Assembly: GCA_024195265.1 (NCBI GenBank)
Contig: JAJLRJ010000008.1
Location: 9,360,501 to 9,424,500, forward strand
DNA length: 64,000 nt
Reading direction: 5' to 3'
Origin: Dendrophyllia cribrosa
Lineage: Eukaryota > Cnidaria > Anthozoa > Scleractinia > Dendrophylliidae
The translations under genes and the position numbers were made by a program. Of the stretch, positions 2,520 to 64,000 are shown piece after piece; positions within the stretch are counted from its first letter, which is position 1; each line of letters opens with the position of its first letter. The notes under the pieces are model-generated. The model worked only from the letters and a program-made list of their open reading frames with translations. It was not told the origin of the DNA and did not search any database.

Positions 2520-5500
2520 GTGCCAATACCTGGAGAGTTTTATAACTGCACTGGTACGAAATTCAAAGATACTTGTGAAGTGAGGTGCCGTGAATACTTC
2601 AACAGAACTGTGCCTAATATACAGTGTGGTTCAGATGGTAGATGGAGTAATCTTGTTGGAGGCGAGTTCTCTTTCATTGCTAAGGCTCTGGAAAATCTTC
2701 AGAGGTCAAGGAGAAAATTTTGCTTAGATTTAAATTTAAACGCACTGTGCTACTTTGCAGGGCAGCTGCATTTGGGGCAAGGATATTGGTAAGGGGTCAC
2801 TCTTCTTTTGGGGGCTTGTGGATGATCTCCACTGTGGGATGCTATCCAGCAAGAAATGTTCAGGGCAGTTCAATGAAAATATTTATCAAATAGCCGTTTA
2901 TAACTGAATAATAACCAAATTTAACAAGTTTAACATACGGAACTCTCAAATTTCTTGCAGTTTGTGTTGTGATAGGTGATCCCTGTATCTTGTGTAACAA
3001 GGTCAATGGCTCATGTATTCAGTTGCCGCACACCCAACAAGCTTCCTGCCAGTGTAATTTGGGTTTTGCTGGTAACGGTGAACATTGTCAGCAAGATTCT
3101 GACATGGATGGCTTCCCAGATGTCCAGCTACCTTGTAAACAAAAGCATTGCAAGATTGACAACTGTCCATCAATACCCAACAGTGGACAAGAAGACAGTG
3201 ATGGGGACAATCTAGGCAATGCGTGTGATGCTGATGATGACAATGACAACATCACTGACACCACTGACAACTGTCAGTTTACAGCCAATCCAGGGCAAGA
3301 AGACCAATTAGACAATGATACTGTTGGTAATGCTTGTGATGACTGCGTCAGTGTTCCTAATGCAGATCAGAGAGACAGCGATGGTGATGGTATTGGTGAT
3401 GCCTGTGATGATGACATGGACAATGATGGGTTTGTCAAAGATGATAACTGTCCTCTGGTGTCTAACCCAGGGCAGGAAGATACTGATGGTGATGGTGTTG
3501 GTGATGCGTGTGATAACTGCATTGATGTCACGAACAGTAACCAGACCGACACTGATGAGAATCTTATTGGTGATGCATGTGACGAGAGTGCAGATGAAGA
3601 TCATGATGGTGTGAGTGATAGTAAAGACAACTGTAAAGCAATCCCCAATGGTGATCAGGTAAAATGATACTTTTGATGACTTCTTGAATCAGTACATGTA
3701 AGTGAGTTTGATTCATCAGCAAGCAGTCAGTCTGTCAGTCAGCCACTCTTTCTACATGAGCTTCTGTCTGTTTTTCTACCTCTCTGTCTTGGGCAGTTCT
3801 AAGCCATTTAGCTGGACAGTTGACCTGCCAGACATTTGGTCACCCAGTCAATCAGTCAGCCAACCGGCCAGCCAGCCAGCCAGCCCAGTGAGTTAAATTA
3901 TTAGTCAATTGATTAGTCAATCAGACAGACAGGCATTCAGCCAGTCACTCAATCAATCAATCAGTTCATAAATCCATCAGTCTGTCACTCACTTTAATTA
4001 ATTGATAAGCTAAATTGGCTACCCTAAAGACATCCAGAAGCTGATGTTCTAAGCGCTAATAAAGCCCTTTGTCATGCAGTTAATTAAGCAAACAGTCAGA
4101 CAGTCAACTAGTTGGTCAGTCAATTAGTCAGACAGGTAATTAGTTAGTCAGTCACCCAGGTCACTAAAGTTAGTAATAATACTGTATCCTTTGATTTTAA
4201 CAAGAAAGAGATTAATAATCATTATTTAGATTTATTTGCTTTGTTCATACATTTATACTTATAAATTTAAAAGTATCATGAACAATTAGTGGAGATGTCC
4301 ACTCAAAACATTTAGTGATAATATATATTAACTGATTTAGGACCATTATATCTTAGGAAATCATTGCATTTAATAATTTGTATATTGATTTCATTAAACA
4401 TGTATTTACACAGCTTGATGGTGACAGTGACAAACAAGGAGATAATTGTGATAATGATAAAGATGGAGATGGAGTTTTGAACATTAATGACAACTGCCCC
4501 CTTGTATCTAACTCAGACCAGGTAAGCTTAAGGTTACAGTGTACCTTCGGGGGTGTCTCCAGTATAACAGCTCTAGCGTCTTAAGATTAAACTTAATATA
4601 TTACCTAAACCCAGATATCAAATTAAAGCTTATAGAGCTGGCTATCTAAATATGGAAACCATTAGGTAATAAAATGAATTGTCGAATTTTTTACGACGTC
4701 TAAATTCGAACGTCCGAATCAGCTTTAAAACGCTATAACTCAAAGCGATTATTGTATTTTGCTAATTTGATTTGTTGTCGGGTTTTCGGACACGAAGCGC
4801 TAAAAAAACGTGTCGGCGATTTCCCATATTCAATTGCAGTGAAAAGTTACAGAATATTTTCGAAAAAGGGAGAAAAAAAATTCGAGTGATTGCACGGAAA
4901 TGGTTCTTGACCAAAAACTTTTCGGAAATAAGAAATTCGCTGACACATTTTTGTTGATTATATGTTAGCCTAGCTTCTGTCCAAATTTGAGGAAAATCAA
5001 ACGAATTCCCTTTGAGTTGTAGCTCTTTAAAGTGTCCCCTACAAGCGAAAAATTAACTTTGAGAAAACAGCGCTTAGAAAAACATATCTCTATATAAACA
5101 AACTCCGCCCACAAAAGTTATACCGTCATTTCGCCGTCAATTTTCACTATTTTTCGATAATTTTTTTTTGGATGAAAGTTCATTCTGTAAACTTTATTTT
5201 GACGCCCAAAAAAAAATTCAATAAATTTTCGATCTGAAGGTACACTGTAACCTTAAAAAAACTTGTGTCAAGAAAAAGATGTATGTTGTGGTTTAAATTT
5301 TTCTTTGGTTTGAAAATTTTCAAACCAGTTTAAATTTTGTTTTCCTTTGTCTTAGATTATGATAATGAATCAAGGACAAAGGAAAATAAAAATTAAACTG
5401 GTTTGAAAATTTTTAAACCAAGGAAAAATTTGAACCACAACATGTACACATGTAATGCTGCATGGGTCAAACAAAAGTCTCCAACGGGTATCAAACCCAT

Positions 5501-20500: not shown

Positions 20501-23500
20501 ACAAATCAAAACAAAAAATGTATTGCTTAAATCTATGGCTTGGGCTACCAGTAATTAGTAATTGATATACAGTAATATTATTGAACCCTGACAAACATAG
20601 CAACTGGTACATTGTTATGCTGAACAAATAGATACTGGCAACTTAAGGGATTGTTTTACCCTGAACATGAATGCAACATGAAAGGTCAAATCGCTGAAAT
20701 CAGTTGTTGTGAGGTCCATGTAGCTGGTGAATTGCTTCTCAATTTCCTCTGGAACTTCACAGTCTCTGAGTTTAATACCAAGCAAGTTTTTCCCTTGAAT
20801 AGTACTAAGAATCTTAGAGCTAAATGGTTCATTAAACAGCTCTGGTGTGAGGACAAGGATAATTCTAGAACCATTTCTTGATGGCTGTTTGTTTGTGGTG
20901 ACACTGAATTTTTTTGCCTCCAACATTCCTGATATCCACTGTTTCACCCACACTCTGTCCTTTTTGCTGTGATAAATGTGAACTTGATAATCCTCAGGTA
21001 CTATATTAACAAACCAAAACAAGGTTAACCCTTTGACTTTTAATTGCCAAGTTCAAAACTAAGACAATTCCATTCATCCATCCCATTGCATCTCCATTGC
21101 ATCTCATCTCATCTCATCTCATTCCCATGCCATCCCATGCCATCCCATTCTATCCTATCTTATCCCATCACATTCCATCCCCCATCTCATTCAACCCCCA
21201 TTTCATTCCCATGCCATGCCATCCCATTCTATCCTATCATATCCCATCACATTCCAACTCTCATCTCATTCAACCCTCATTCCATTCACATGCCATCCCA
21301 TTCCATTCTATCCTATCTTATCCCATCACATCACATCCCCCATCTCATTCAACCCCCATTCCATTCCCATGCCATGCCATGCCATGCCATCCCATTCTAT
21401 CCTATCTTATCCTATCTTATCCCATCACATTCCATCCCCCATCTCATTCAACCCCCATTCCATTCCCATGCCATCCCATCCCATTCTATCCTATCCTAAA
21501 ATATAACAATAACAATCTATTGTTTTTATTTTCATAATTTTAAATTCTTATTTGTAACAAACTTTTAGTTTTATCTTCATTTTTCTGTTAGTCCCTGAAG
21601 GTTTTTTTTCAAACCGAAATATTGGGCAAATTTGTTTGAATATATATATTTTGTTTTATTCTTTTGTTTACTCTTTCATCGCCTTGCCGTAAGGATCAGT
21701 TTGCCATTTTCTGATATCCTATCCAATCCCATCACATTCCATCCCCATCTCATTCAACCCCCATTCCATTCCCATGCCATGCCATCCCATTCTATCCTAT
21801 CCTATCCCATCACATTCCATCCCCATCTCATTCAACCCCCATTCCATTCCATTCCCATGCCATGCCATCCCATTCTATCCTATCCCATCACATTCCATCC
21901 CCATCTCATTCAACCCCATTCCATTCCCATGCCATCCCATCCAATTCTATCCCATCACATTCCATCCCCATCTCATTCAACTCCCATTCCATTCCCATGC
22001 CATCCCATCCCATTCTATCCTATCCCATCACATTCCATCCCCATCTCATTCAACCCTCATTCCATTCCCATGCCATCCCATCCCATTCTATCCTATCTTA
22101 TCCCATCACATTCCATCCCCCATTCCATCCTGTCTTATCCCATGCCATCCCATCCCATTCTATCCTATGTATATGCATTCCCATCCTATTCTATTCTATC
22201 CTATCATATCCCATCACATTCCATCCCCCATCTCATTCAACCCCCATTCTATTCCCATGCCATCCCATCCCATTCAACCCCCATTCCATTCCATCCCCAT
22301 CCATTTGATCCCACCCATCCCATCCCATTTCATTCCTCCCCAACCCATTCCATTCCCATTCCATTCCACCATATCCCATCCCACCATATCCCATCCCATC
22401 CCATTCCCCTTGCCATCTATAGTGACCTTACTTGAGTCTGGGTCAGTAGGTAGTTTGGGTGTCGTCATCCTCAGTGGATATCTGGCACTGCTGCTGGATG
22501 TCCATCGACGCAAGTCAGGCTGCCACTCATTTGTGCTGTTGAGTGCAAACACATTGTTGTCCAGGAGCCACTGTAGATGGGCTGTTCTGTATTTCACAGC
22601 CTTGTTTTCTCCTTGCATTGAAAACTCATCAAAATCTGGTCGGAATCAAAATACTGGACATCAATTTTTACTCATGCGCAAAGCGCAATGAGTTAAAAAA
22701 TGCCCTTCGTTTTTCTTTTCTTTTTTTTCTTTTTATTATTTTTTGTGTCACGATTTTGCATGCAAATTTATGCACACATATTTTAAATTGTGCACTTCCG
22801 GTTCATAGCTTTGACATTTACATTTCCTGTTTAGTGACTTCTGGCTACTCTCACTTCCGGTAAAACAGCGTTACCTAAGTGTCACGACATCGTCTCCCAC
22901 AACCATACTTACATTACTGATGTTCACGTTAGGTATATATGAAACTTAGAAGAATCACTGGCTTCATTGTGGTACAGCCTTCATTTACAAAACATTCAAA
23001 AAAACTTTATTACACATGCGCATGAGTATAGGCTGCTTGAAGCCTCTTGTTATTTATGAAATGCTTGGCAAACTTGTGATTGATGTGGCAGGAGTTATTG
23101 AAGACTCTGTAGAAAACCACGGGGGAAGGGGGGACTCCATATTTTTGGGTGGTGTTCTGTTGGGTCTCTGAAACTCTTACTCTATACCAGAACACGTTCA
23201 GCTGCATTTTGCAATCCTATTCAGCTCAGTAAAGAATGAAGTTTAGTTTTTGTTTGAATCTTCCTCTTGTAACAGATATGTCACTAGCATTCTAGGGTGG
23301 CTTAATTTTTAAATCAGGTATAACAATTTAAGGTACATATTGATTATCGAACATGTTATTCACCTATGCACTCCTTTGGGTATCCCCGTGAGGCAGGACT
23401 CCTGTCTAGCTGAGCTTGCTTTCTTTGATTGCGTTGGATTTTACTTTGGTCACTTTCACAGTACGATGATGCCCTTGAACATGTGTTACCATGGTCAGCT

Positions 23501-38405: not shown

Positions 38406-41400
38406 ATGTCTGCTCCTCCGAAACCATGGGAAGGAGCAGGGATAAATGCAAGGTCACATACAGTTTCTTTTGATTCGCCATCTCGGCTTCCATTAGGAGC
38501 TGGGGGACCCAGACTGAATGCTCTTCGCAGTTCTGGCGAAATGGATAACAGTTCAACTTCTGAATCAAAAGCTCCACCTTTGCCTCCCAGACCTCAAACA
38601 CAACGATCAAACGGTGGATTTATGAATGGAGGGTCAAGATATGGTAATGTTTTTGTGTCTATACATCATACATGTATGTGAAATTATTACAAAGGTTAAA
38701 GTAAGTTGAATCTGTATGTTTCGTGAAGTTTGTGCTGACAGTTTGCGTGGCTTTTATGTGGAAAATGTAACATTATTTTAATCAGGTTTTTAGCATTAAA
38801 TTTAGTAAAAACACGCAAGTTACATGTAACTTCTAGGATCAATTATTCCAGAGTATAAGCCTTAATTGCATTGAACATTTGCAACTATTTTTGGCTCTTG
38901 AAATGTTTTGCAATATAATTTAAGCTCATGTTTGATGTTTGAGGCGTCACAATAGACGATCAAAAATTTTTAAAAATCAATCTGTATGATAATTTAAACC
39001 CACAGCATGGAAGAGAATGACTTAAAAAGTAACTATAAAAATGTTTGGGATCAAGAAAACATGATCAGAAGTTCCCCAAATTTACAAGCATTATGCACAA
39101 TTGTGTGTTGTGTGTTGTGTATTTTTTACCCAGTTGAACCATGATCTAATTTTTCTATGTTCAGTTTATGTTTCTATTATGAAACATTACCATCTAAAAA
39201 TAAAATTTAATAAGATTACAATAGAAAAGTTTTTTTCCCAGGGAATACTCAGATGGTGTTAAGTAATGGGGAGGTCACTGGTGCAAAGATTTTTTATTTC
39301 ATTTTGAGGATCTAGTTTTGCCCCATTTTATTTTATTTTTAAGTTTTGTTATGGGGGGAGGGGTTCATTTTGGTCCTTGGGAATTTTTTTGGGTGCTACA
39401 TTATGGCTTTTGCTAGGCAATTTACAAGTTACACAAAACATTGCCTAGTGTAACACTGCCTTTAATGGTAATTGCATGAGAAGAAATTGGCCATACAGTC
39501 ATTATTTTATCCTCGCATATTAATTTTTTGTGGTTCATACTTAAAGTGCCTATAACCCCTAGAAAGTTATTTTCAGAATCAATTCTATGTACATTGAATA
39601 GTTGAATGGTAAAATATTTCTGGTTTTGAACGTCGCGTTTGTGAGTTATAGAGATTTGAATTTACAAAATGCTAATTAGATGACGTCAACCCGGGAATCA
39701 TTTATTATACAACTACATGTTTTCACCTCCAAGTAATATTTTTTACGAATCAATCGACTATCCACAGTTTATTTTTAGAATTTATCAAATTAATTATCCT
39801 CAAGCTGTAAACTGCGCATTGTAAATTGGCGTAGAAATAATGGCAAATTCCCGGGTTGACGTCATCTACTTAGCATTTTGTAAATTCAAATCTCTATAAC
39901 TCACAAACACGATGTTCAAAACCAGAAATATTTTACCATTCAACTATTCAATGTACATAGAGTTGATTCTGAAAATAACTTTCTAGGGGTGACAGGCACT
40001 TTAATGGCTGGTGGATGAAAAAAAAAAGACTCAGTGTTCTCCTTAGCCTTTTCAAGCCAGGCGAGCCCCCTGCCTTGATTTTCAAAAAATTGAAAGCCCC
40101 CAGGCTTAAAAGAGATACCACCATGCTTGAAGATATTTCGGACTTCAGCAAAAGGCCATACTCACACGACCATTTGATGCAAGTCAGAAAACCCCCTGGC
40201 GTTCCCAAAATCCTGGGGAGAACCTTGAGACTAGTAATAATATCAATATCTTTAATTTCAGGTTATGGTGGAAGCATGTATGGAGGATATAGTGGGATGT
40301 ACGGGGGTGGATTTGGAGGCAAGTACACACTATAAGCCTTGAGGCAATTTTATTTGACAAAGAGTATACAGTTTAAAAAATTTAACGTAGTCATTGAGTG
40401 TATAATACAAAAGGAAGAAGGGTAACTAAAGAATCTTAGCTGACCAACAGTATTGGCCATTGTGTTGGCCAACACATTGCTGTCATCAGCCTGTGCTTTT
40501 GTCTGGAGGGATTATTACTTTCGAGATAACAAGTAATATAAGAAGTACTAAAGCTGTAGTTGTAACATTCATGAGAGAATTGGTCACTGCTTATTGGGGG
40601 CACTACTTTTGAAATTTTGTGGTATACAGCAAATGCAGCTCTAATAAACACGAAGATGCACTATAAAAGGAAAGTACCTTAGGTACATTGTACGTCAGGA
40701 TAATTTTGTCAATCAACTGCCATTGCGTACGAACCTCTGTGAAAATCTGTAGAGAATAAAGACAGCTTTTGAGCAATCTGTCTGTGTGGTTTACTTGCCT
40801 TTGTTTGTACTAGTCGCTTTTGGCAAACCCCATAACATTTTCAACACAATGGACAAATATGTTGAGGTTTGTATCCTTGAAATTCCTTTGAGACATTCGA
40901 ACTTTTATGGCGCTAATTTCAGAATAAAAACAACGAAAATTAGCTCACTCGAACTGAAACAGGGGCAAAGCTATTCCTTTTATAGCGTGTCTTCATGTTA
41001 AAACACTTAACAAGAAAGAGTTTGTTTGAGAAAGCAGGAGTAGTTTCAGGGCCTGCAGTAATGGCTTTGCCATTGTGGTTTCCCCACCTTTATCGTTTAT
41101 TTACTTTCTTGTTGGGATTGGCCTACATGGACACATTGTAGTTACCAGTAACTACTAAACCAGTGATGCCATGGTCATATATCATCCACATGATAAACTA
41201 ACATTACTTGTAGACTTACACTTTAAATTTATTTATGTCATGAATGTCATTTTTGTCTTTGCTTTCTTTTTTGTTGTGGTAAAGCTAACAAAATACAATA
41301 TTTAAATATTAAATAAAAAATAGCTGATGGCAAACATCCATTGTATTATTCAGTGTTTTGATAAGAAGGCAGCGTAGGTTGGAGCTCTGATTTCTATTTG

Positions 41401-44400
41401 TACTCAAGTAGCAACCTGCTTTGTTCTGAGGTTCTTATATGCCTAATTTCTTTAATTTTGAAAACTTTTTCAAAATTAAAAAAAAAATCCTGCATTTATT
41501 GTCTTAATTTTTTTTTTCGCTTTTGTCCAGGTTATGGTATGTATGGAGGAGGATATGGCGGGTATGGTGGTTACGGCAGTTATGGAATGGGTATGAACCG
41601 ATTTGGTAGCCCCATGAGCCAATCAGGATCAAGCTCTTTTGTGGGGCGGGCAGAAGAGAGCAGCCAAGCAGCTTTTCAGTCCATTGAATCCATTGTTCAA
41701 GCATTTGGATCTGTGGCCATGATGCTGGAATCAACACACTTTGCCATGCGTAATTCATTTCACGCTGTTTTGAGCATGGCAGACCATTTTAGTAGACTCC
41801 GAACTCATCTGGTTAGCGTACTTGGTGCATTTACCTTGTTTAAAGCTATTCGTTACATCTTTAGAAAGATCCGTGCTTTGTTAGGTTTCGCACAAAACCA
41901 AGCATTGGAAGAAGAATTGTGGGATAAAGCAACAACGGCTGTTGTGCCCTCCAGTGGCCGTGGAGGAGGTGATTCTAAGAAGCCATTATCATGGCCGATT
42001 TTGTTGTTTTTTGGAGTCGTTCTTGGCACTCCTCTCATTATATGGAAGTTGTTGCAGTCTATTGTGAATGATGAGAGCAACACTAAGGACTGGAAAACAG
42101 GTATTCATTTCTTAAGTAATAGTTAGGCAGTTTTCCTTTTAGCCAATGTAAATCCAGGTTTTACAATCAAAAATTCACTTTTCAAAAATTCTTTTTAGGG
42201 ACAAATTGATATTACATTGAAATTTGAACAATCGTTGTATGAAGATGAATAATTCAGATTGTTAACTGAATCTGGCTTTAGATAGTGCATAGTATGTAGC
42301 AAAAGTAGATCTTGTTCTATAAAGCGTGAGTTCTTTAAGAGTGGGAAAACATCGGTTAGGGTTAGGGTTACAAATAAAAAGATTGATGAGTTTTTCAAAA
42401 AGCTCAAATTGCACTCGCCAAAGCGGCTTGTGCAATTTGAGCTTTTTGAAAAACTCACTCGTGCAAATTAATCCCAAATTGAACTTGAAACCATATGATT
42501 ACAGTTGTACCTATACAAACTATGTGAAACTGAATTGTATTACACAAATAGGAACACAGCCTAAATTTTTAAGAAAGTATCACCTGCAGAACTGTTGGTG
42601 CTCTGTGTTTTGCACATATTCCTGACTTTTTCCACTGTCTGCAAAACTGCTAACAATATATATGCCTGCAACGTTTATTTATTGAATTTAATTTTGCAAA
42701 TGTTTACTTCATATCACAGCTCTCATGTCTGTCTATTGAGTTTTTTTTTTCCATACCTCTCTCACTAGCAACTCTGTGACTACTTATTATTATTTTGTAA
42801 GTGATGTGGCAAAAAGAAAGTTCATGTCACCTGACCCCTTTTACTTATTTTCAGGGGAGGGAGATCATGTTATCGCAAGAGCAGAGTACGACTTTGATGG
42901 CGAAGGGGAGGAGGAGTTATCATTCCGTGCTGGTAACATTCTTCGGCTTGCTCCCAAGGGCAAACAACCTCGCATCAGAGGATGGCTTCTAGGCACAGTT
43001 GATGGAAGTAGTGAGGGTATTGCTCCTGCTAATTATGTCAAGGTTAGTAGTCCAAGCCTTTAACCCCTGTAACCCAAAATTCAAGAAAATTCCTAAATTT
43101 CATTTTGTATAATATTAAAAACAAATGGTGCAAGTAACAGTGCTGCTGAAGAGGTTTCATTTGAATGGTCACAAAGTCTGCAGACTCAAAAGTTAGAAAA
43201 ACACTACACTTGGCTTGCTCCCAAGGGCAAACAACCTCGCATCAGAGGATGGCTTCTAGGCACAGTTGATGGAAGTAGTGAGGGTATTGCTCCTGCTAAT
43301 TATGTCAAGGTTAGTAGTCCAAGCCTTTAACCCCTGTAACCCAAAATTCAAGAAAATTCCTAAATTTCATTTTGTATAATATTAAAAACAAATGGTGCAA
43401 GTAACAGTGCTGCTGAAGAGGTTAGAAAAACACTACATTTCTCCATAATTAACTCTGAGAGTGGAAGTAAAAAGGACAAAAAGGGTTAAAGGAAATAAAG
43501 TCTAAGTTCCAAATCGTTTTTAAATAAGTGGCCTATTTTCACTTTAATTTGAATTTCCTGCACACCAATATGAATTTTTATTGTCATAACATGGTTGCCG
43601 GATAGTTACATACAAAAGAATGTTGAATCTTAATAATAGCGGCAAACATGTGATGTCATAAAAATTCAAAATGGTGGTATGCTGGAAATTTGAAAGTAAA
43701 AATGGGCGATGATCTTATCTTGTCTCTTCTGACAATATTTATTCATTAAAGGTCAAATGAACCAAAAATTTAATTTTTTTTCCTTATCCATTTAAAGCTA
43801 TTTAAACGTTAAAGGAAACCATAATAAAGCATACTTACGCAACAATTTGCCTTCCTGAGCCTTTAAGTAAGTCACATAGCTAAAGGTACGAAGATTTCCG
43901 AAGACTTCACGAAAACGTTTCTGAAATGGCCATGCGCTTCAAGTGGTAGGATTGGTAAGGATTATGACGTCACTATTGGAGAGCTAACCGTGTACCCAGT
44001 GTCCTCTCTTCTGGCGAATGCATGAGTATTCTAACTTGCATGTAAGATTTTCACTGTTTTCGTATTGAAAATAGACAATTGTTGCTGCAGTTTATCGCAG
44101 AACAAAACACCATAGTTTTTAGCTTAGTCACCGACTTTCAACTTCAATCCTTGACTGTTTTGAGGTGGTCAATAGTGACGTCACTATTGGTTTCGGACAA
44201 TTTTCCCGATTGCTCTACGATTATCAAGGCCAAAAAGTTTCATTTTTCAACTTCCAATATCTCTGCGATGCCAAGTCCAATTAGTTTTAAACTTCAGAAT
44301 ATGTTTATTTGGACCTCTTTCAACATATATTGCACTAATATTGGACTAAAAGAAAATATGTCAAATTTTTGGTTCATTTGACCTTTAAACAGTTTCCATG

Positions 44401-47439: not shown

Positions 47440-49112
47440 CTTTTAAAAATTGCATGTTGTTCAATTGGGTCTCAAAATACTTGTAACCTTAAAAAAATTA
47501 AACAAGGGGGGACTTAATATGTTAGATTTTACGCTATTTGATAAAGCGTTAAAGATAGTCTGGGTAAAGCGCTTGTGCGCTAACGATAAAAGACCATGGA
47601 AATTTATCCCACTGTCTTTACTTTCCAACGTTGGCGGCAATCTCCTTTTCCGGTGTAACTATGACATTCAATATCTACCCCTGAATGAAAACTTACCAAA
47701 ATTCTATCGAGATATAATTTCCCACTGGCAGAAAATTAATAGCACTAATCCGAAAACAAAAGGTGACGTGCTAAATCAAATAATATGGAATAATCAGTTT
47801 ATTCGAGTAAACAAGTTATCTGTTTTTTTCCCTGGTTGGAAAAGAGTCGACATTGAAAGTCTCTCGTGCCTTTTCGACAACAAAAGTAACACCTTGATGC
47901 CTTTTAAAACCTTCATGCAGAAATACAATGTTAAGAGTAATTTTCTACAGTATTACAGCCTTCTATCTGCAATACCACAGGAATGGAAAACTATGCTAAA
48001 GCAGGAATGTCTTCTACCGTCAACTGAATACGTACCACTTGCAATCGAAAAGCTCACATGTAAAACAATTTACAATACTTTACTCAATCACCAGCAATTC
48101 CCTCCTCCAACTGCCGAGAAAAGACTTATTGAAAGCGGCTTTATCTTTCAAGAAAGACAAAAAATTTATTCACTTCCTTTTTGTGTCACAAATGAGGTAA
48201 AATTATCCGTGTTTCAATATAAAATAGTACATAATATCCTGTATACAAATAAAATACTGTATAAGATGAAAAAGAAACAGCAACCCGATTGTCCTTATTG
48301 CCATGACATTGATCAGACACCACTCCATTTATTTGTGGAATGTCCAATTGCTAAATCCTTTTGGAATAAATTTACAAGGTGGTACAACGCTTCATGTAGA
48401 GGAAACATTGCTTTGGAGCAAAACGAAATTATCTATGGTGTTTTAAAACATACATCGTCCGGTTTAACCCTAAATCACTTGATCATAATTGGAAAATATT
48501 TTCTTTACATTAACGCAGTACAAGATGACAAAAGACCCCGTTTCACAGATTTTATAACCCTCGTTAACGAAAAAATTGAATTAGAAAAATACATTGCGAT
48601 TATGACAAATAAACTACCTTCTTTTACTAAAAAATGGTCTAATTTTTTAAACAATTAACTACTTGAAACTAGCTGTGTAAATACAAATATCGTTACTATA
48701 CATTTGTAAGTAACTTTATTAAATTTATCTATTTGTAATAAGTAATCGTATCCGTATAGTATCGCAGCAGTAGTATTGTTCTTAGTATCATAAGTATCGT
48801 TTCGTTAGTAAAATCGTATTGTAAGTAGTTTCGTATTTCTTTTAGTCGTTTCTAGTACCGTATTGTAAATAGTGTAAGTATCACTTTATAGGTAGTATAG
48901 TTTAAGTAGTGTGTTGTAGTTTGTTGTGTATTGTATTATATGTATTGTAAATAGTGTTTGTATTAATAGTGTAAGTATAAACAGTGTAATGTAATGCAAT
49001 GTAAATGTAAATGTAAGTATAATATTAGTATTGTAAGTAGTGTAAGTGTTTTTGTAAGTAATATGGTTTTATTTAGTATTGTTTTATGTGCAAAAAAAGA
49101 AAAATCAATAAA

Positions 49113-53400: not shown

Positions 53401-56176
53401 ATAAACCTGAAGAAAACACAAAGAACTTTTTAAAATGTACAAGATGAAGTTGTGTGCTTGTTGACTTTACAGCAAAATTTTCCCAGTTAAACTGCATTGT
53501 CATTTGAAATAATTACAGTGGAAAACCGATTTTTCAACCTTCCTAGGGAAAGGGAAATTGTTTTGAAAGATTGGGATTGGCATCCACTAAATCAAATCCA
53601 AGGGAAACAAGTTTTTGTTCAAATAATCGGGAGGTTTGAAAAGGCTACATGCATGCTCAAGATACACTGGACAGCTTTTGTGTAGAAAGCCTTCTGTTCG
53701 CACAAGAAAAACAATATTTGGCATGGCTTCGGTACCAGTGCTCTGCCACACTACTCTTCTCTTCTTCTCTTCTCTGTTTAGTTTTTAATGCTTCTTTAAT
53801 AGTATAAATTTCCTATACATTAGTGTCAAAGAATATAGTGTAAATACTTTTAGTACATATGAAAATGTATAATGTAATGTTTAATGTTTAAGATACGCGT
53901 AAAGTAAAATACATCAAATGAATGACAATAATATTACAACTGACTTACAGTTTTTGCTTTTGTAAACTTTTCCTCACATTTCTTGATTTCTTCTGGAGAA
54001 ACTCTTCTTTTTGACAAATCAATGTATCCTGTCAAAACATTGCACAAAATTTACAAATTTGCTGAGTACCATGAGAGGACTCTCTCTAAATTGAAGAAGA
54101 ATCTTTTTTGAAGTTATCTGATTGTCCTGGCCTCTAACAAGACTGACTGTCCTAGCATAGTTTGGTCTTATGGATATTTCTAATAACTGCTAGGGTAATA
54201 TATTTACTGTAAATGAAAAAATGCCGAGGGCATTTATTACAAACTTGATACTGCAGAGACAGGGCTGTCATTAGTAGCTGGCAAGTGGCTTTATGGACTG
54301 CAACTGTGGTGAAGATGACCAGCAATTCAAAGTTTAAAATGACTAACGGACAACAGCTTTGGGAAACTATCTTGAGTTTATGACTGCCTACTTTTCTAGT
54401 CTAGCCAGTTACCACAAAACTCAACGACAGCTGTGAAGGGGTGTCTCTTTTTCAAGACAGGCATTAATAATAATAATACTTTATTTATATAGCGCCATTA
54501 CCATCACTGTCCAATGGCACTTTACAGATTGTAATTATATTAAGTTACCTAAACTGTGCTTAAATTTAACAATGCTGTATATAACCTAAAAAATAAAGAA
54601 CTTCGAATTCAGTACTAAACACTTATTTACTAAAAATGCTTCCTAAAAAGATGAGTCTTAAGTTTTTGCTAAGTTGTGATGTTGGACTGTTTGCATGCAA
54701 TTTACATGTATTCATTAAAAAGGCTATTGTAACCTAACAGAGACCGTGCTATTGGGACCCTAGAGAATGCTAAGGGAACGTGATCTGCTTATTGTTCTCT
54801 GTTAGGTTACGTCTGTCCAGTACTATACTCTAAGAGGGAGGGGGAGGGGGAGGGGGGTGATGGCAGGGATGGTGAAAGCACTTGAATCCCACCAATATTC
54901 ACCAAGATCAACATTTCCAGGTTCCGATTCAATCTGGAAAAAGTGGAAGTAAGGGCCACTCTTTATCCCATTAATCCTATTCATAACAAATGCTTTTATT
55001 AACATAAGAGGCACAATAGCAAGTCCAAAAAATAATTCTGTATAAATGTAAATTGTACTGGTACTAAATAATGTACAGAACTCTGTCAGTTTACTTGAAG
55101 TTGGAAGAACTCAAACTAAAATTGTTCCAAATTATGTATAAACTGGTTGATAAGCCACACCCTGAGTTTTAAAAGCTTCAAAATTCTTACCTCTGAGTTT
55201 TGTGACCTGCCCCAGTTGTGAAATATGGCACAGTATATGCAAGTGATACAATAGGCCATTTCCGAGTTGCCTTTAGCCTCTCTATCAAAATGAGGCTAGG
55301 TGCAAAACCTTTCATATGAAAATGAGTTTCCATTCACATGCAAATAAAACTTATTTGCATGTGAATGAAAACTCATTTTCATATGAAAGGTTTCGCACCT
55401 AACCTCGCTTTGATAGAGAGGCTACAGGCAACTCGGAAATGGCCTATTTGATTAGAAAGGGCTCTTTTAGTTCACAGCACATAGTAATAAAACATACCCC
55501 TTTTACTGTATAAAGCTCGCAAAAAAATTGCAATTTTTGCAGGTATTTGCATGGTGGTGGTAACGTCTTGCATAGCCAGTATATCAGCACTGTTATATAT
55601 TGTATATACAACATCATTTTTGCCGGCATACTGACGTCTGCTGGCAAAACTTACAGTTTTTGATGAGCTATAAGCTTTATATATATTTGGTCCTACACTA
55701 AATTAAGCCATACGAAGATCTCTTATTGTGGCGGCATGCTCTTTTAAATAGTGGGAATGGTTTCATTCAAACCCGAATAAGCTAACTGCTTACTTCTTAC
55801 GTGGACCAGTGAATTGTTTCAGTACACAGGACGCATGCACCAATGCATGAAAATCAAATTACATGGCGACAGATACAAAGAAACTAATACTCGGAAATGG
55901 CAATACTAATCATCGTAAAAATTAGTTCACCAACAAACCTTTATCTTTGTCTACACGAATGACCACCACACATTCGTTTCTACCAACTCGGATCAGTTTG
56001 TTGATCGAACGAATTCGCCTTCTCGACAATTCACTGAGAAGAATCATTCCTTCGATGTTGTTGTATTCCAACAAATTCACGTAAGCCCCCATCTCCGCGA
56101 TACTCCGTACGTTAACCATCACAACATCGTCGATTTCTGGGTACTTGTGTTTGTAAAATCTACAGCTAAATGGCAT
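50455..56176 (-). CDS. EIF2S1: Translation initiation factor eIF2 alpha subunit
   Basis: The alpha subunit of eIF2, which brings initiator tRNA to the 40S ribosome; phosphorylation of its serine by stress kinases slows translation. Six minus-strand exons join in phase: 56176-55939, 54028-53949, 53406-53258, 52486-52282, 51696-51553, 50583-50455; 314 residues, against 315 in mammals. The start [14 protein letters not shown] and the S1/OB fold are clear. The regulatory loop [20 protein letters not shown] contains the phosphorylated serine (SELS, then RRR). The helical domain ([17 protein letters not shown]) and C-terminal alpha-beta domain ([17 protein letters not shown]) follow, then an acidic tail ending [11 protein letters not shown]. 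All splice borders are GT-AG. Confidence 0.97.
52918..53118. mobile_element. CCCGGTTGTTC-end MITE, copy 2 (inverted)
   Basis: In an EIF2S1 intron, with ends GGGCCGGGTTGTTAAAAGC and GCTTTCAAACAACCGGGCCC. It contains the internal segment shared with copy 1 at 30418-30655, in reverse orientation. Confidence 0.75.
54460..54815. repeat. AT-rich repeat and small foldback in an EIF2S1 intron
   Basis: AATAATAATACTTTATTTAT followed by ATAGCGCCATTACC resembles widespread retroelement tails. At about 54727-54811 a small foldback has GTAACCTAACAGAGA at the left and TCTCTGTTAGGTTAC at the right. Confidence 0.5.
55252..55446. mobile_element. 195-bp near-perfect palindrome
   Basis: TAGGCCATTTCCGAGTTGCC at the left mirrors GGCAACTCGGAAATGGCCTA at the right. 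Inner arms contain CTTTCATATGAAAATGAGTT and its complement around a centre near 55348. In the first intron of EIF2S1. Confidence 0.85.
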
Positions 56177-57744: not shown

Positions 57745-57954
57745 AGTAGATGGAGGTTAATTGTTCGGGGACAGTCATTTTAAGGCTCCCCAGACCCTCT
57801 ATGGAGCCTTAATTTAATGATTGACAACCCTTATCCCAGGTCCTCCTGCCAGTCGGCCCTGGGATAAGGGTTGTCAATCATTAAATTAAGGCTCCATAGA
57901 GGGTCTGGGGGACCTTAAAATGACTGTCCCCGAAGCAATTAACCTCCATCTACT
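57745..57954. repeat. 210-bp near-perfect palindrome at the left side of the virus-like block
   Basis: AGTAGATGGAGGTTAATTG at the left mirrors CAATTAACCTCCATCTACT at the right. The arms are about 95 bp and almost identical, with a centre near 57850. It ends about 180 bp before the first virus-like gene. It may be one more foldback MITE, like several others in the window, or a terminal structure of the inserted element; the sequence alone does not decide. Confidence 0.8.
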
Positions 57955-58088
57955 CTGCCCGATCCATCCTCTTCACACAGAGCGCAAAACTCATAAGGGC
58001 AACAATCGATTAAAGCAACCAAAACAAAACGCCAAGGAGGCCCCCATTCATCCAAACGAAGCCCTATGGTGCACGTTAGGTCTGTCCG

Positions 58089-58136
58089 TGTATTACCAAT
58101 TGAATAAATGCATGCCCCCTTGTATATACCACGATG
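58089..58136 (+). promoter_or_regulatory. Start-proximal repeat with TATA motif, copy 1
   Basis: TATTACCAATTGAATAAATG continues to TTGTATATACC and the start ATG at 58134. Nearly the same string (TATTACCAATTGAAAAAACG, then TTTGTATATCA, then ATGATGACGA) occurs at 58683-58730 before the exonuclease start. A TATA-type motif 5-15 bases from the start also precedes the 228-aa and 604-aa genes, suggesting a shared late-promoter style. Confidence 0.5.
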
Positions 58137-58724
58137 ACGAACAGAGCTATGACTGCTGTTGAGTTCTTGGCCATGAGAAGAATCCCTTTGAAAGAAGGCG
58201 ATGATATCTTTGCGAAAAATAAAGGAACATTCGAATATAATCCTTGCAGATATTGTGGTTTAAACTTCACACCGGGCCACTCACTCGTGGAGCATCAAAA
58301 ATACGCTTGCAAGAAGCTGAAAACAGAAAAACGACCGTAAGTGATTTGCTCCAGTTGCAATCGAGAAGTTTCTAAAACAACAGCTTACAAACACATACAA
58401 AATGGCTGCCCGTCTTTAAAAAGAAATCCTCGAGCTCTTCTCAAACATGAGGCGGATTTGGCGGCACCCCCGAGGGCTGTTCGAGAAGTTTTTGCCAAGT
58501 CAAATGTCAGCTGGCATGAGCTGAATGCATGGCTTGACGAGCAAGAACAAGAACAAAAACCATTTAAAAACAAAAGCTTAGAGGCTCTTGATCCTTTAAA
58601 TGACATCCGTGACTTAAGCTTTGTTTCGGATTACATCGCAGGTAAGAAATCACTCGCAACGTTTCAAACGGAGTTGAGTGGTTATTACCAATTGAAAAAA
58701 CGCCTGACCTTTGTATATCAATGA
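58134..58724 (+). pseudogene. C2HC zinc-finger virus-like protein broken by a stop codon
   Basis: One reading frame of about 196 codons is divided by a TAA at 58338-58340. Each side of the stop holds one zinc finger of the pattern C-x2-C-x11/12-H-x4-C: CRYCGLNFTPGHSLVEHQ and so on before it, CSSCNREVSKTTAYKHIQNG and the final Cys after it. Paired fingers in one frame show that the stop is a mutation and not a gene border. The rest is charged (KHEADLAAPP; DEQEQEQKP) with no other domain. Fingers of this type often bind nucleic acid or partner proteins. The gene lies just upstream of the exonuclease and overlaps its start region by a few bases. Confidence 0.6.
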
Positions 58725-59729
58725 TGACGACAACGCAAGTGTTCATGAACTTTCTCAAATCGAGGAACACTGGTCTAAAACAAAAGAGCGCCGACTGGGT
58801 GAGAGCCAGACAAAACTCCATTGGTGCATCAGAGATCTCTGCCTTGACAGGATCATCGCCGTTTGAATCACGGCAAAGCTTGCTCATAAAGAAAATACAG
58901 CAAACAGATATGCTCAACAATGCGGCTTGTACCTGGGGCAATCTGTTCGAGCCACTTATACGCAAGTATTTTGAGCAAAAACATTCTGTTTCAGTTTTTG
59001 GTCACAGCATCTCTCTTAATCTAGCAAGAGATCATCCACTTTATCGAAAGGTCACTTGCAGCCCAGACGGATATTTTCTAGACAAAAGATAACACCTTAA
59101 GCCTGTTAGAGTTTAAATGTCCGTTCAAGCGGAAAATAGCTATGAACAGAATTCCTAGTTATTATAGCGATCAGATACAAACAGGCCTTGCTTTGAGTGG
59201 GGACATGGTAAACAAAGGCCTGTTTGTTGACGCTTATTTTAGAATGTGCTCTTTAAACCAGCTTGAACCAAGTTTAGCACACAATCAGTTTCTCAACGGA
59301 GGAAACAAATATAAAACGAAGGGCAACACAACACTTGCGTGGGGAGTTTGTTATTTATTTAGCAAACGGATGATAATCAGAAATCAAGACTCAATCATCG
59401 ATGCCGGTTCACTCAAATCAAAACAATTATTTGAGAGAATTATGTCTTCCATTGCGGAGAAGGACATATGGTGTTGTTATGGTGCTGTAAGGATGTCGTT
59501 TAGAAAACAGGACGAAGACGAGGAGTTTTTGCGTTATAACCATATGCAAAAAGTGTTTTCAGAGGGATCAGAAGGCCCTAAACCAGTGGCTATGTTCGCC
59601 TGGAAGCTCCTGGATATAACTGAGATTTGGGCGCCAAAGCAACCAAACTTTTTGATAAATATTCAAAGGGCAGTCGAGCACTTTCATAACAGCTTGGCAA
59701 GCCTTCGAAAAAAAATAACAGAACACTGA
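58721..59729 (+). pseudogene. YqaJ-type viral recombinase/exonuclease with frameshift
   Basis: A member of the YqaJ lambda-exonuclease-like family, used by large DNA viruses and phages to trim DNA ends for recombination or packaging. The first segment (58721-59092, 123 codons) has W26, the GASE motif at 35-38, the LFEP glutamate near 77 and SPDG at 114-117. The second, in another frame (open from before 59142 to 59729), has the EFKCP active-site motif near 59110-59124 and YYSDQIQTG. The two pieces meet at about 59085-59095, where the first frame stops, so one indel has broken the catalytic domain. A 33-codon frame at 59746-59847 could be a further tail. It is on the plus strand, convergent with the VLTF3-like gene. 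Confidence 0.75.
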
Positions 59730-59834
59730 AGAGGTAGTTGAAAATATGGTAGTCCAAACAAAATCTTTCGCTCTAGTGAAGGGTGAGGACGAAGAGAAAA
59801 TGCTTGAGTTTTTAATGAATGAACTTGAGAAAGG

Positions 59835-60580
59835 TCACTCAACGTGACCCATCTTTTCAAGCATGATCTTCCAGTTTTGTTCGTGTTTCCACATTGAGTT
59901 TTGTGGAATTTGTAGCCAGAAGTAATTGACAATATCACGCTGTGGCCATTTTAGTACAATTGCATCCAAGATTTTGTAGGCTACAAATGGCATAGAGATT
60001 CTATCCTGTAGATGTTCTTCAATGAATTTGAAGGAATCATTTGCATGTTGTATTTCTTCGGAGGACAAGCAGGCGTAGGGTTCACAAATTTTCAGATGTT
60101 TGTTGAGATAGTTTTTGAAGTTGTAGCGTTTGGTGGGCATTCTTTTTTTGGTAATTTTGTAATCACCACCATAGAGCTCGTTATAATCAAAGGCCACACC
60201 ATCCAGAGGCTCTAGGAGCCCGCAGTTCTCACAGCAAAGTTCTGATGAAAACATCCTGAGGTTTAATTTGCCTTTGCAGTTTTGGCAAGCTTTTATCCTT
60301 TCATTCAAAAAGTAGGTAGGTTGGAGTAGGTTGTGGTGTATTGTGCCACGTGAGAAAGACACTCCTTGATGTGATGAAGACGTTCTGGCAGGCCTGAAGG
60401 CCGTATTTCCTTGTTGTAGTTGTCGAGTGAGCGTAGGATGATAAAGTTGTGTTCTTTATCAAGCTCATCGAGTTTGGTTTTGTATTCACCTTTAGTGTCC
60501 AAGCGCCGAACATCAGCAAGATATTTAGCAAATTCATCCATGGTCGTACACAGCCGTGTTGTGTATTCAATTGGGCGCAA
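59835..60580 (-). pseudogene. VLTF3-like late transcription factor, apparently frameshifted
   Basis: Resembles poxvirus late transcription factor VLTF-3 and relatives in nucleocytoplasmic and polinton-like viruses, which switch on late (structural) genes. The main frame (60362-59835, 175 codons) has a zinc ribbon (C26, C29; C43 or C44, C47), then RYNFKNYLNKHL near residue 79 and a helical part ending in a QIPQNSMWKHEQNW stretch. It has no ATG at its start. A separate frame just upstream (60580-60305; first ATG at 60541) overlaps it and ends in a T5 tract near 60305-60310. The two frames look like the N- and C-terminal parts of one gene separated by one indel, though two overlapping genes cannot be excluded. 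Confidence 0.7.
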
Positions 60581-60619
60581 ATGATTTATTCTTCGAAATG
60601 TAGAGGTTAAATCCAGAAT

Positions 60620-61306
60620 TTAATCTCTCAAATCGGACTTGGATGCTGCGGTGAGAAGATTTATCTTTTTTTGAAATTCTTGTTTGACTTCCTTGCGAAG
60701 TTCGTTTTTGAGTTTCTCGAGGTCTGGCGATTGTGTTTGAGTGGCAACGTTTTTTGATGCCTTCACACCATCCCTGATTGCAGCTTTGAGTTCGTGATAT
60801 TTTTCCACCTCACGAGTGATTATTGTGAATTCTGTATCACTGATCCTCTTGTCTTCCAGAGCCTTTGAGACCAGCTCATTGACAGAGTTGCGTTTAGCCA
60901 GGGCCAGTGTGTAGATTTTCTCGTGTTTGGTCACTCTCCGCTCTAGCCATTTGTTTGCAGTTGCAAAACCAACTGAGGACAGCCCGCAAAGCGTGGCAAC
61001 GCCAGCAAGTGCAGGACTTATAACAATTCCTAATCCGGTCAATGCAGTGGCTAGGGCCCCTGATGACAGCCCAACAGAAATCGACCCAAGTCCAACCGCC
61101 GAGTAATGAACTAACGATTGGGTCCGTTTGTATTTCTTTGCGACTTGCCTATAGTGCTCGGCTTCGCCAGACAGCTCCTTAAGCAAGTCAGAAATCTTTT
61201 TGAGCCGGAAGTCTTCTGCATTAATTTGAGTGATCTCACGCATAGGGTAGAGCTGTTGTGCCTCGCTGTATTCCGGAGCCGATGGCAGAACGTTCGCAGA
61301 ACTCAT
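60620..61306 (-). CDS. Virus-like hydrophobic protein, 228 aa
   Basis: Intact, starting at ATG 61306 with a TATATATA motif about 10-15 bases upstream. The N-terminal third is charged and helical (KKISDLLKELSGEAEHYRQV). The middle (about residues 70-115) is a long Gly/Ala/Ser-rich hydrophobic stretch (LGSISVGLSSGALATALTG) able to enter a membrane. The C-terminal half is a coiled-coil-like, Lys/Glu-rich part. I do not recognise a named family. Its place beside the penton-like and capsid-type genes suggests a virion membrane or minor capsid protein, which is inference only. Confidence 0.6.
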   Translation of the reverse strand: MSSANVLPSAPEYSEAQQLYPMREITQINAEDFRLKKISDLLKELSGEAEHYRQVAKKYKRTQSLVHYSAVGLGSISVGLSSGALATALTGLGIVISPALAGVATLCGLSSVGFATANKWLERRVTKHEKIYTLALAKRNSVNELVSKALEDKRISDTEFTIITREVEKYHELKAAIRDGVKASKNVATQTQSPDLEKLKNELRKEVKQEFQKKINLLTAASKSDLRD

Positions 61307-61339
61307 GTCAGATGTGAGTATATATATGGCTTTATATTT

Positions 61340-62011
61340 TTAATTTATCTCAACTTCAAACTCCAACGACTTGTTATTGAAGTCGAAGAGCTCGCCATTT
61401 ACATCCCTCACTGACAGTGATATGCTGTTTACATAATCTCCAGACGAGACGTCACGCAAGACGTACTGTTGTGTTGTTTCGTAAAACACCTTCTCAAACG
61501 GCTTTCCACGAATATCAAACCGAGCCAAAACTGTTGAAGGCTTACCATTGAGTAGGTTTTGTTCTTTATCAACCAGATCACAGTGGATAAAGTAAGTGCT
61601 TGGTGATGTTAATCCTTTGACGAATGTTGTTGGCCACAGCAATTTAGGACTTATACCAAGCAATTCAGATAGATCGCGGTCTAGCTTAACCTCTTCCTCA
61701 TATTCTTTGTAAATTACCATCGACCCTAGAGGCGAGTTTGTCTCGATTGCAAATTTAAACTCTTCATTTTGGAATACGTTTTCTAATTCTTTTGCCAAAG
61801 ACTCAAGAGTGTAATGGCCTGGGAGAAGTCTCCTGACAGTTCCTTCTTTTTTCCTATTACCAAACAATGTTATCTCTCCTCTTTGTTTCAAATTATGCCA
61901 CGAATTGAAAATTGAGCAAGAGACAAGACGGATATAACTCGGTTTCGGAAGCGGGTGATCGAAGTAGATCGTGTGAGGGTTCGAAGGCGAGACGATTGTT
62001 AACACAACCAT
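61340..62011 (-). CDS. Penton-like single jelly-roll capsid candidate, 223 aa
   Basis: Intact, ATG at 62011. Many short alternating beta-type segments and a C-terminal pattern SLSVRDVNGELFDFNN then KSLEFEVEI resemble the end of polinton and adintovirus penton-like minor capsid proteins, which sit at capsid vertices. The start (TIVSPSNPHTIYF, then YIRLVSCSIFNSW) fits a jelly-roll strand order. It is divergent from the 604-aa gene across a 45-bp AT-rich spacer. Assignment is from pattern and neighbourhood, not a database match. Confidence 0.55.
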   Translation of the reverse strand: MVVLTIVSPSNPHTIYFDHPLPKPSYIRLVSCSIFNSWHNLKQRGEITLFGNRKKEGTVRRLLPGHYTLESLAKELENVFQNEEFKFAIETNSPLGSMVIYKEYEEEVKLDRDLSELLGISPKLLWPTTFVKGLTSPSTYFIHCDLVDKEQNLLNGKPSTVLARFDIRGKPFEKVFYETTQQYVLRDVSSGDYVNSISLSVRDVNGELFDFNNKSLEFEVEIN

Positions 62012-62056
62012 GATTGCATATATAAAAACATTTTTTAAATATAAATATATACAATC
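62012..62056. promoter_or_regulatory. AT-rich divergent promoter
   Basis: The 45 bases between the two ATG codons are almost all A/T, with TATATAAAAA toward one gene and AAATATAAATATATAC toward the other. The ends form a near-palindrome (CATGATTG... and ...CAATCATG). Such a short divergent spacer points to a compact viral genome with two promoters back to back. Confidence 0.65.
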
Positions 62057-63871
62057 ATGTTTGGCAGACGCCCCGTTGGATTCAATCCTAATTCACTTGG
62101 TCTAAACATTGGCGGTCACAATTATAGCCCCCCACCCCCTTTTTATTCAACCCCAAACGTCTATAGCCATGTAAAGTCAAAGCCATCCCCAGATCCACTA
62201 GCCTGGATGAGAACACCAGAAGCAGCAAAGTTCTCTGCTGCGGCTAAGGCCAAGGCGATCTCAGACTTCAAAAAGCGTTTCCCGCGCGCCGATATGTCCC
62301 ACTTTGAAGTGCAAGTAGAGTTTGGCGACGACCGCAAAACCGCGACAGGGGAAGTGCTTTACAAAGAGGGTCAAGGCTCATTAGCGCTCGTTACAAGAAT
62401 GCCCCACAAAGATTGGACTCAAGCCATGAAAGACGCTCTTGGTCTCCATCAAGACGGTGGTTTCCCCTATCAGCTATCGTTGATTCGAAATACAGAAAAG
62501 CCAATCCCAGCTGTTGATTTCTCAACCACAATAGACAAGGATATGATGATTGGCGCAATCTTGAACGACGAAGCGCAAAAGATTTACGTCACGCCAACTG
62601 ATTATTTCACAACGAAATACAGAAATATCTTCAGGGACACACAGATTTCATTCACAACCGCGAAATACGGTAGAAAGTGGCTAGGCGGGCCGCATATGAG
62701 TTTTTGGCCACAACAACTATCCTTCGCACTGTGGTGTGCAACAACCGGCTGCGGAATCTCGCGTGACATTCTCTTCGATAAGAACTCCAGTCTATCCCTA
62801 ACACCACGGTTAAGGTCGTTTTACCGGTTTCATGTTTATTTCACAACAAGGCGAATACTCTACAAGATGGGTAGGGAACAAAGCGTGAGTGCTTTGCCAG
62901 ACGACCCTCCATTCAACCAGAAAGACAACAAGTACAACATCGACGCGTACAAGAAGATTTGCATAGAGTTAGGTATCGACCCCAGTTCTGACTTCCGTTT
63001 CACATACGGCAAGAACCACGGTCTTGGGAATGTCTGCATTGGTGAATATGGAGGTGGCAACATTTCTACCGATTACAACTATCCCGACCCCGATCTAGCT
63101 CTGTTCAATGATGAGCGTGTGACTGACAGAAACGACCCCAACTATCGCGCCAATGGAATATCTTTCGTTCGCAACGACCAAGGGGCGGACACCCAGTTCG
63201 AGCACTTTGTGCCAAATTACGCACAGGGGCTAACACAGCCAGGGCTCGCGCGTATGAACCAATCAATCGAGGCCTTTGTGTACTGCATTCTTGGTTCACA
63301 AGGCAAAACCCGCAGCAGCATCATTGGAAGAGGAGGCTGGGCGTTCGAAACGCAGAGAGTATTCCTCACCCATCTAGAGAAGGCCATAATACTGAACGAC
63401 ATCGCAACAAGCGTACAGCGTTACCAGCTTACCATCCAAGCAACGAAAGTGCGCCTAGACTTTGCGACAGCACCCGGAAGCTGGCTCATGCCATCACGCA
63501 TGGTTATCAACACAGAGAGCGTGATCGGGTATAACAACAATCTAAAGGAGACAACGCAAGGGATGAAACTAGGTGTGAACAATGATGTTAATCTGGGCAC
63601 AAAAAAAGCCTCACTTCACCACATGGACGGTGGACCAACAAAGATTAATCCACCAAACAGTCACCCATCAAACCCGATACATGAAGAGGCTACACAGGCA
63701 CAGGGAATCGCGCCAGCCCCAGCCACAAGAAAAACACCACACCCAACCCCCACACCCACACCACAAACCACGCCATCAACACCACTCCAACCCGACCCGC
63801 ATCACGTAAACAAGGCACTCATGGCTGTGGGTGCGCTTGCTTTGGCAGGTGTTATCGTTTGGTTTACATAA
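62057..63871 (+). CDS. Candidate major capsid-type protein, 604 aa, with C-terminal anchor
   Basis: Intact and the longest open frame of the virus-like block. It begins with a Pro/Asn-rich segment (PPPPFYSTPNVYSH), then a folded body of about 480 residues with many aromatic and beta-type stretches (TPTDYFTTKYRNIF; WPQQLSFALWCATTGCGISR; FEHFVPNYAQGLTQ; GRGGWAFETQRVF). A Thr/Pro/His-rich linker (about residues 550-580) and a final hydrophobic helix (LMAVGALALAGVIVWF) follow. Size, position next to the penton-like gene and beta-rich look suit a virion surface or major capsid protein, but the C-terminal anchor is unusual for a double jelly-roll capsid protein. I do not recognise a named family. 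Confidence 0.5.
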   Translation: MFGRRPVGFNPNSLGLNIGGHNYSPPPPFYSTPNVYSHVKSKPSPDPLAWMRTPEAAKFSAAAKAKAISDFKKRFPRADMSHFEVQVEFGDDRKTATGEVLYKEGQGSLALVTRMPHKDWTQAMKDALGLHQDGGFPYQLSLIRNTEKPIPAVDFSTTIDKDMMIGAILNDEAQKIYVTPTDYFTTKYRNIFRDTQISFTTAKYGRKWLGGPHMSFWPQQLSFALWCATTGCGISRDILFDKNSSLSLTPRLRSFYRFHVYFTTRRILYKMGREQSVSALPDDPPFNQKDNKYNIDAYKKICIELGIDPSSDFRFTYGKNHGLGNVCIGEYGGGNISTDYNYPDPDLALFNDERVTDRNDPNYRANGISFVRNDQGADTQFEHFVPNYAQGLTQPGLARMNQSIEAFVYCILGSQGKTRSSIIGRGGWAFETQRVFLTHLEKAIILNDIATSVQRYQLTIQATKVRLDFATAPGSWLMPSRMVINTESVIGYNNNLKETTQGMKLGVNNDVNLGTKKASLHHMDGGPTKINPPNSHPSNPIHEEATQAQGIAPAPATRKTPHPTPTPTPQTTPSTPLQPDPHHVNKALMAVGALALAGVIVWFT

Positions 63872-63880
63872 GCGCAAATC

Positions 63881-64000
63881 TCAAGACCTCGCACGCTTGG
63901 TGATCCTTTCAACAAGGAAGGCCACCACGGCAAGGATGAGCAGCCAGGCGTGTTCACCCAGAAAGGAGATGACCGACCCAGCCGCTTTGAAGATGAAGTT
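63881..64000 (-). CDS. C-terminal end of a virus-like membrane protein (cut by window edge)
   Basis: The last 39 codons and stop of a minus-strand gene that starts beyond the window. It holds one membrane segment (HAWLLILAVVAFLV) followed by a basic tail (ERITKRARS), the usual inside-positive arrangement. It converges with the 604-aa gene with 9 bases between the stop codons, matching the compact layout of the block. No family can be named from this piece. Confidence 0.55.
   Translation of the reverse strand, partial: NFIFKAAGSVISFLGEHAWLLILAVVAFLVERITKRARS

Follow-up and report, generated by a model that had tools for sequence, protein, structure and literature searches.

In polintons, the penton gene is described as lying immediately upstream of the capsid gene or one gene away from it (PMC4028283). 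Among animal capsid genes, those of cnidarians alone are reported to lie outside the main Maverick-Polinton cluster (PMC10120064), and copies of VLTF3 have been described in the sea anemone Exaiptasia pallida, isolated among animal genes (PMC5294986); Amoebidium is reported to have adintovirus-like elements that carry VLTF3 (PMC11244446). Here, we describe a gene block that fills the right end of a 64,000-nucleotide (nt) stretch of Dendrophyllia cribrosa contig JAJLRJ010000008.1, hereafter the window, and runs off its edge at 64000. We consider the block to be, probably, one end of an endogenous, partly decayed polinton-like (MELD) DNA virus, which lies upstream of eIF2-alpha in an animal-type genome and belongs to a large element family.

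The open reading frames (ORFs) reported in an earlier note on this DNA were present as listed and form a compact run. The plus strand carries a zinc-finger frame (58134–58721), a YqaJ-type nuclease (58721 to about 59729) and a gene for a 604-amino-acid (aa) protein (62057–63871). The minus strand carries a VLTF3-like gene (60541–59835), genes for proteins of 228 aa (61306–60620) and 223 aa (62011–61340) and the tail of a membrane-type gene (64000–63880).

Gene products and their relatives

The 223-aa protein matched 1535 of 1724 scored candidates at E ≤ 1e-3, with a best identity to its aligned relatives of 66%. Its structure model had a mean predicted local distance difference test (pLDDT) score of 62.3; residues 41–130 reached 80–94 per block, and residues 151–223 were under 50. 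Five of its six best structural matches in the PDB were virus capsid proteins, with the mavirus penton at the top, and the capsid proteins of PBCV-1 and EhV-201 were also among the best matches. As modelled, the protein most resembles viral capsid vertex proteins, and the penton identity proposed in the earlier note is supported by a partial penton-like fold.

The 604-aa gene adjoins the penton-like gene. At least 1743 matches to its product were found at E ≤ 1e-3 when the best 8000 candidates were scored, with a best identity to aligned relatives of 61%. A C-terminal hydrophobic anchor behind a Pro/Thr linker is conserved: the preceding HHxNK-type motif was kept in 110 of 120 homologues and the anchor in 107 of 110 (homologue figures on motifs, shared contigs and labels refer throughout to the 120 matches listed per protein). 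No convincing family or structure was found for the protein in Pfam, PHROGs or the PDB, and profile–profile comparisons, either between two parts of the protein or between its alignment and the penton alignment, gave no match. The earlier note had proposed comparing the predicted structures of the 604- and 223-aa proteins with jelly-roll folds; the 604-aa model, with a pLDDT of 43.9, had an unreadable fold. In polintons, the capsid gene often occupies such a place next to the penton gene, which may be taken as a hint only. We regard the protein as a candidate major virion protein, with a capsid role unproven.

The 228-aa protein has a hydrophobic stretch, with a best 19-residue mean hydropathy of 1.9 starting from residue 91, and matched no Pfam family above the cut-off; it is a candidate virion membrane or core protein. 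The gene at 63880–64000, in frame 0 of the reverse strand, encodes the C-terminal end of a hydrophobic membrane-type protein, of which the last 39 residues lie inside the window.

The nuclease is read in two pieces. The first (58721–59092) matched the YqaJ family of Pfam (PF09588) with an E-value of 1.9e-12 and 48.1 bits, against a curated cut-off of 22, over profile positions 1–100 of 150, and the RecE-like phage family PHROG 434 with an E-value of 2e-18. The second piece (59082–59729), in another frame, gave no family match on its own and holds the residues LEFKCP near its start, which we take to fit the ExK active-site motif of the YqaJ family. Judged from these matches, the YqaJ identity claimed previously is real.

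The VLTF3-like gene is similarly divided, into an N-terminal piece (60305–60541) that starts with the ATG at 60541 and matches homologue P0245 over 60335–60541, and a 175-aa C-terminal piece (59835–60362), split off by a frame change. The C-terminal piece matched 216 of 225 scored candidates at E ≤ 1e-3, and the alignment of this family keeps a CxxC...CxxCG zinc ribbon together with further invariant positions. Pfam holds a VLTF3 model; none of the 34 family members scanned, the window piece included, matched it at E ≤ 1. Weak Pfam matches were obtained to DUF5637 in 25 of the 34 (best E 0.00019), to the TFIIB zinc-binding domain in 12 (best 0.012) and to Trm112p in 2 (best 6.2e-5). The name "VLTF3-like" follows a resemblance of the ribbon protein to VLTF3 that Pfam did not confirm. 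The VLTF3 identity is plausible but unproven.

The listed homologues of the 604-aa, 223-aa and VLTF3-like proteins lie on ENA contigs, the longest of 3.46 Mb, and none of them has a Pfam label; 686 sequences fell into the largest homologue cluster. When contigs of equal size were taken as the same contig, 17 were shared between the 604- and 223-aa proteins, 17 between the 604-aa and VLTF3-like proteins and 19 between the 223-aa and VLTF3-like proteins, and four carried all three. For the 604/223 pair, the only one tested, the chance expectation with jittered values was 0.012 on average. The three genes share contigs far above chance, which demonstrates company rather than adjacency, since some of the contigs are megabases long. 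Tighter company was seen on a contig of 24,865 bases with the 604-aa and VLTF3-like genes and on one of 59,406 bases with the 223-aa and VLTF3-like genes. In a tree of 67 rows, the window protein and its neighbour both had long branches, so that the placement of the window protein is unsure.

IMG/VR was scanned with the 604-aa protein and its alignment, with the alignments of the VLTF3-like and penton proteins and with the YqaJ piece; these scans, which reach proteins sharing the scanned peptide patterns only, found no relative. Phage records scanned with the 604-aa protein, and prokaryote genomes scanned with its alignment and that of the penton, yielded none either. Three profiles searched against PDB sequences produced no useful match, the hits including one to GATA-4 at an E-value of 1.3.

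Promoter motifs, decay and surroundings

With both strands of the 64 kb searched, the motif CCAATTGAAWA was found exactly three times, each time oriented with a gene of the block: as CCAATTGAATA at 58096–58106 (plus strand), 38 nt before the ATG of the finger gene; as CCAATTGAAAA at 58688–58698 (plus), 33 nt before that of YqaJ; and again as CCAATTGAATA at 60564–60574 (minus), 33 nt before that of the VLTF3-like gene. No more than one match appeared in any of 1000 shuffled versions of 57955–64000 (mean 0.025), while shuffling of the whole window gave a mean of 0.43, with three matches attained in 2 of 300 cases; because the motif was derived from these very sites, such figures are descriptive. 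With one mismatch allowed there was no enrichment (9 found versus 8.1 expected). The 27-nt stretches at 58091–58117, before the finger gene, and 58683–58709, before YqaJ, are 85% alike, which suggests a duplicated promoter region.

TATATA is common elsewhere in the window (43 in all versus 16.8 expected). All five matches between 57955 and 64000, at four sites, lie 20 nt or less before an ATG: at 58123–58128 (plus) before the finger gene, at 61319–61326 (minus; two overlapping matches) before the 228-aa gene, at 62019–62024 (minus; TATATATGCAATCATG) before the 223-aa gene and at 62046–62051 (plus; TATATACAATCATG) before the 604-aa gene. The last two genes are divergent, and the 45 nt between them hold both of their boxes. 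The VLTF3-like start has no TATATA, and the YqaJ start has TATAT. Upstream of the VLTF3-like homologues, the residues PIEY or PIEH were found in 3 of 120, and 37 of 120 penton homologues had an upstream extension by pattern, all reading YSN or YSK directly before the Met. It is possible that the relatives carry traces of the same promoter sites; such protein letters allow, and do not prove, a DNA motif, and many of the sequences are near-copies rather than independent.

Three genes of the block are interrupted. The VLTF3-like gene has one frame change at 60305–60362, seen by comparison with full-length homologues. The YqaJ gene has one at about 59082–59092, and the finger frame, with its two C-x2-C...H...C fingers, has one in-frame stop at 58338–58340, both read from the sequence and from known motifs. 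The finger pieces are read as one broken gene; in principle, they could be two separate genes. The pieces of broken genes were searched separately. The 604-, 223- and 228-aa frames are open, and the copy as a whole is partly decayed. The earlier observation accordingly holds for its ORFs, for homologue families beyond chance and for YqaJ; the copy is not wholly intact, and the VLTF3 and capsid names are unproven.

The start of the block had been placed at 57745. This position proved to be the edge of a palindrome (57745–57954) that lies just to the left of the element's first gene and whose relation to the element is unproven. Its 85-nt inner arms are 94% complementary and its 26-nt outer arms 88%, the outer pairing ending at 57745 and 57954; because the two pairs of arms are offset by half a base, a single register pairs only 102 of the 210 positions. 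It starts with AGTAGATGG and ends with CCATCTACT. The palindrome is possibly the terminus of the element or else a separate fold-back element; no second element end was found in the window, where it is the sole candidate end. Another palindrome, at 55250–55448, has arms of 98 nt. Only a single copy of the block was found in the window; we attribute two weak VLTF3-like matches elsewhere in the window (E 0.055 and 0.099) to chance.

An N-terminal exon of eIF2-alpha lies at 55922–56176 on the minus strand, some 2 kb away from the block. Because this exon shares the window with thrombospondin type 3 repeats (2969–3667) and peroxin-13 (41398–42126), we place the block in an animal-type genome. Elsewhere, a long CCATC-type repeat array at 21044–22435 has a strong strand skew (GC skew −0.765 at 21001–22000), and the open frames across it are probably not genes. 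A 402-aa open frame with a zf-RVT domain at 47450–48658 is probably the end of a LINE-type retrotransposon.

Origin of the block

The host genes in the window, the vertex-protein-like model of the 223-aa protein, YqaJ and the shared contigs support the earlier claim of an endogenous DNA-virus-like block in an animal genome. A polinton-like virus of this kind would form an icosahedral particle with the 223-aa protein at its vertices, and the tail-anchored 604-aa and hydrophobic 228-aa proteins would likely be virion or membrane components. The YqaJ nuclease may act on DNA ends, preparing them for packaging or for replication through recombination. The virus would drive its own transcription: the finger, YqaJ and VLTF3-like genes would be expressed early, from the CCAATTGAAWA sites 33–38 nt before their ATGs, and the VLTF3-like factor would then activate the structural genes through the TATATA boxes right before theirs. 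The ORFs tested at 58134–64000 matched no PolB, integrase, protease or packaging ATPase family; we infer that the element continues beyond the window. Because the last third of the 223-aa model is unreadable, the penton reading goes no further than supported, which tempers our confidence in the polinton-like origin.

The main rival is that the block is an integrated fragment of a giant virus (Nucleocytoviricota or a small relative, e.g., a mriyavirus). In its favour, YqaJ and VLTF3 belong to the giant-virus gene repertoire, the penton fold is common to both kinds of virus, the ribbon protein resembles VLTF3, and PBCV-1 and EhV-201 supplied two of the best matches of the 223-aa model; moreover, VLTF2 and VLTF3 are held to be diagnostic of Nucleocytoviricota affinity (PMC11253617). 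However, Pfam VLTF3 was not matched, the top structural match was the mavirus penton, and the ORFs tested in the block, where the element is cut by the window edge, included no giant-virus type major capsid protein, packaging ATPase or other giant-virus core gene. The many relatives and the three genes sharing contigs are more like a multiplying element, and VLTF3 is not decisive, being reported in adintovirus-like elements (PMC11244446). We therefore consider a giant-virus fragment unlikely.

Former virus genes retained by the animal as a domesticated cluster would account for the three long frames that are open, but the same copy contains broken genes as well, the best identities of 61% and 66% for the 604- and 223-aa proteins do not suggest strong constraint, and the promoter-like motifs stand at a virus-like spacing, which makes domestication very improbable. 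Several unrelated insertions side by side, for which the palindrome and the 27-nt promoter-region copy could be cited as local rearrangement, are the least credible explanation, given that a single motif precedes three genes across the two strands, that a divergent 45-nt promoter separates the 223- and 604-aa genes and that relatives of three genes share contigs.

Among the papers listed by literature searches, none was recognised as describing the whole gene set, and no paper was found that combines YqaJ, Cnidaria, endogenous and virus. The 604-aa, 223-aa and VLTF3-like proteins have large families of relatives for which no description as such an element was found, and parts of the set have printed precedents; the earlier suggestion of a new lineage is fair in part. 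It is doubtful that the block represents a distinct and widespread endogenous lineage of animal viruses, with polinton-type pentons, a 604-aa tail-anchored non-jelly-roll shell or membrane protein, a CCAATTGAAWA/TATATA early/late code and a VLTF3-like factor. If the relatives are complete, the family would add to those of animals a group of polinton-like viruses that has a late transcription system of its own, and single sea-anemone VLTF3 genes might be parts of whole elements. The presence of giant-virus-type transcription factors in small viruses of the polinton-like kind is relevant to the relation of giant viruses to polinton-like ancestors, and existing genome and transcript data would allow the promoter code to be tested.

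Comparison with known systems

Mriyaviruses, as described in PMC11253617, are likewise small DNA viruses; they encode VLTF3, penton-type minor capsid proteins and a PDDEXK nuclease. This nuclease, however, is described as homologous and not orthologous to YqaJ, their capsid protein is a double jelly-roll, and their rolling-circle (HUH) replication gene was not seen in the block. The Exaiptasia pallida copies are VLTF3-type genes inside a cnidarian genome, but, by their description, they represent a single giant-virus core gene grouped with Asfarviridae (PMC5294986). The adintovirus-like elements of Amoebidium are endogenous and carry VLTF3 with minor and major capsid genes; compared by description, they differ in having a protist host and in their PolB and Dam methylase, which were not seen in the block (PMC11244446). 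With polinton-like viruses and virophages, the block shares a penton-like protein whose top structural match is that of mavirus, while the IMG/VR scans, within their reach, found no relative. As for Polintons, Mavericks and adintoviruses, the block differs in that the ORFs tested within its visible 6 kb lack polymerase, integrase, protease and ATPase, in its unmatched 604-aa protein and in carrying YqaJ and a VLTF3-like protein; it shares with them integration in an animal-type genome, compact genes and a penton-like gene beside a larger virion-type gene (PMC4028283).

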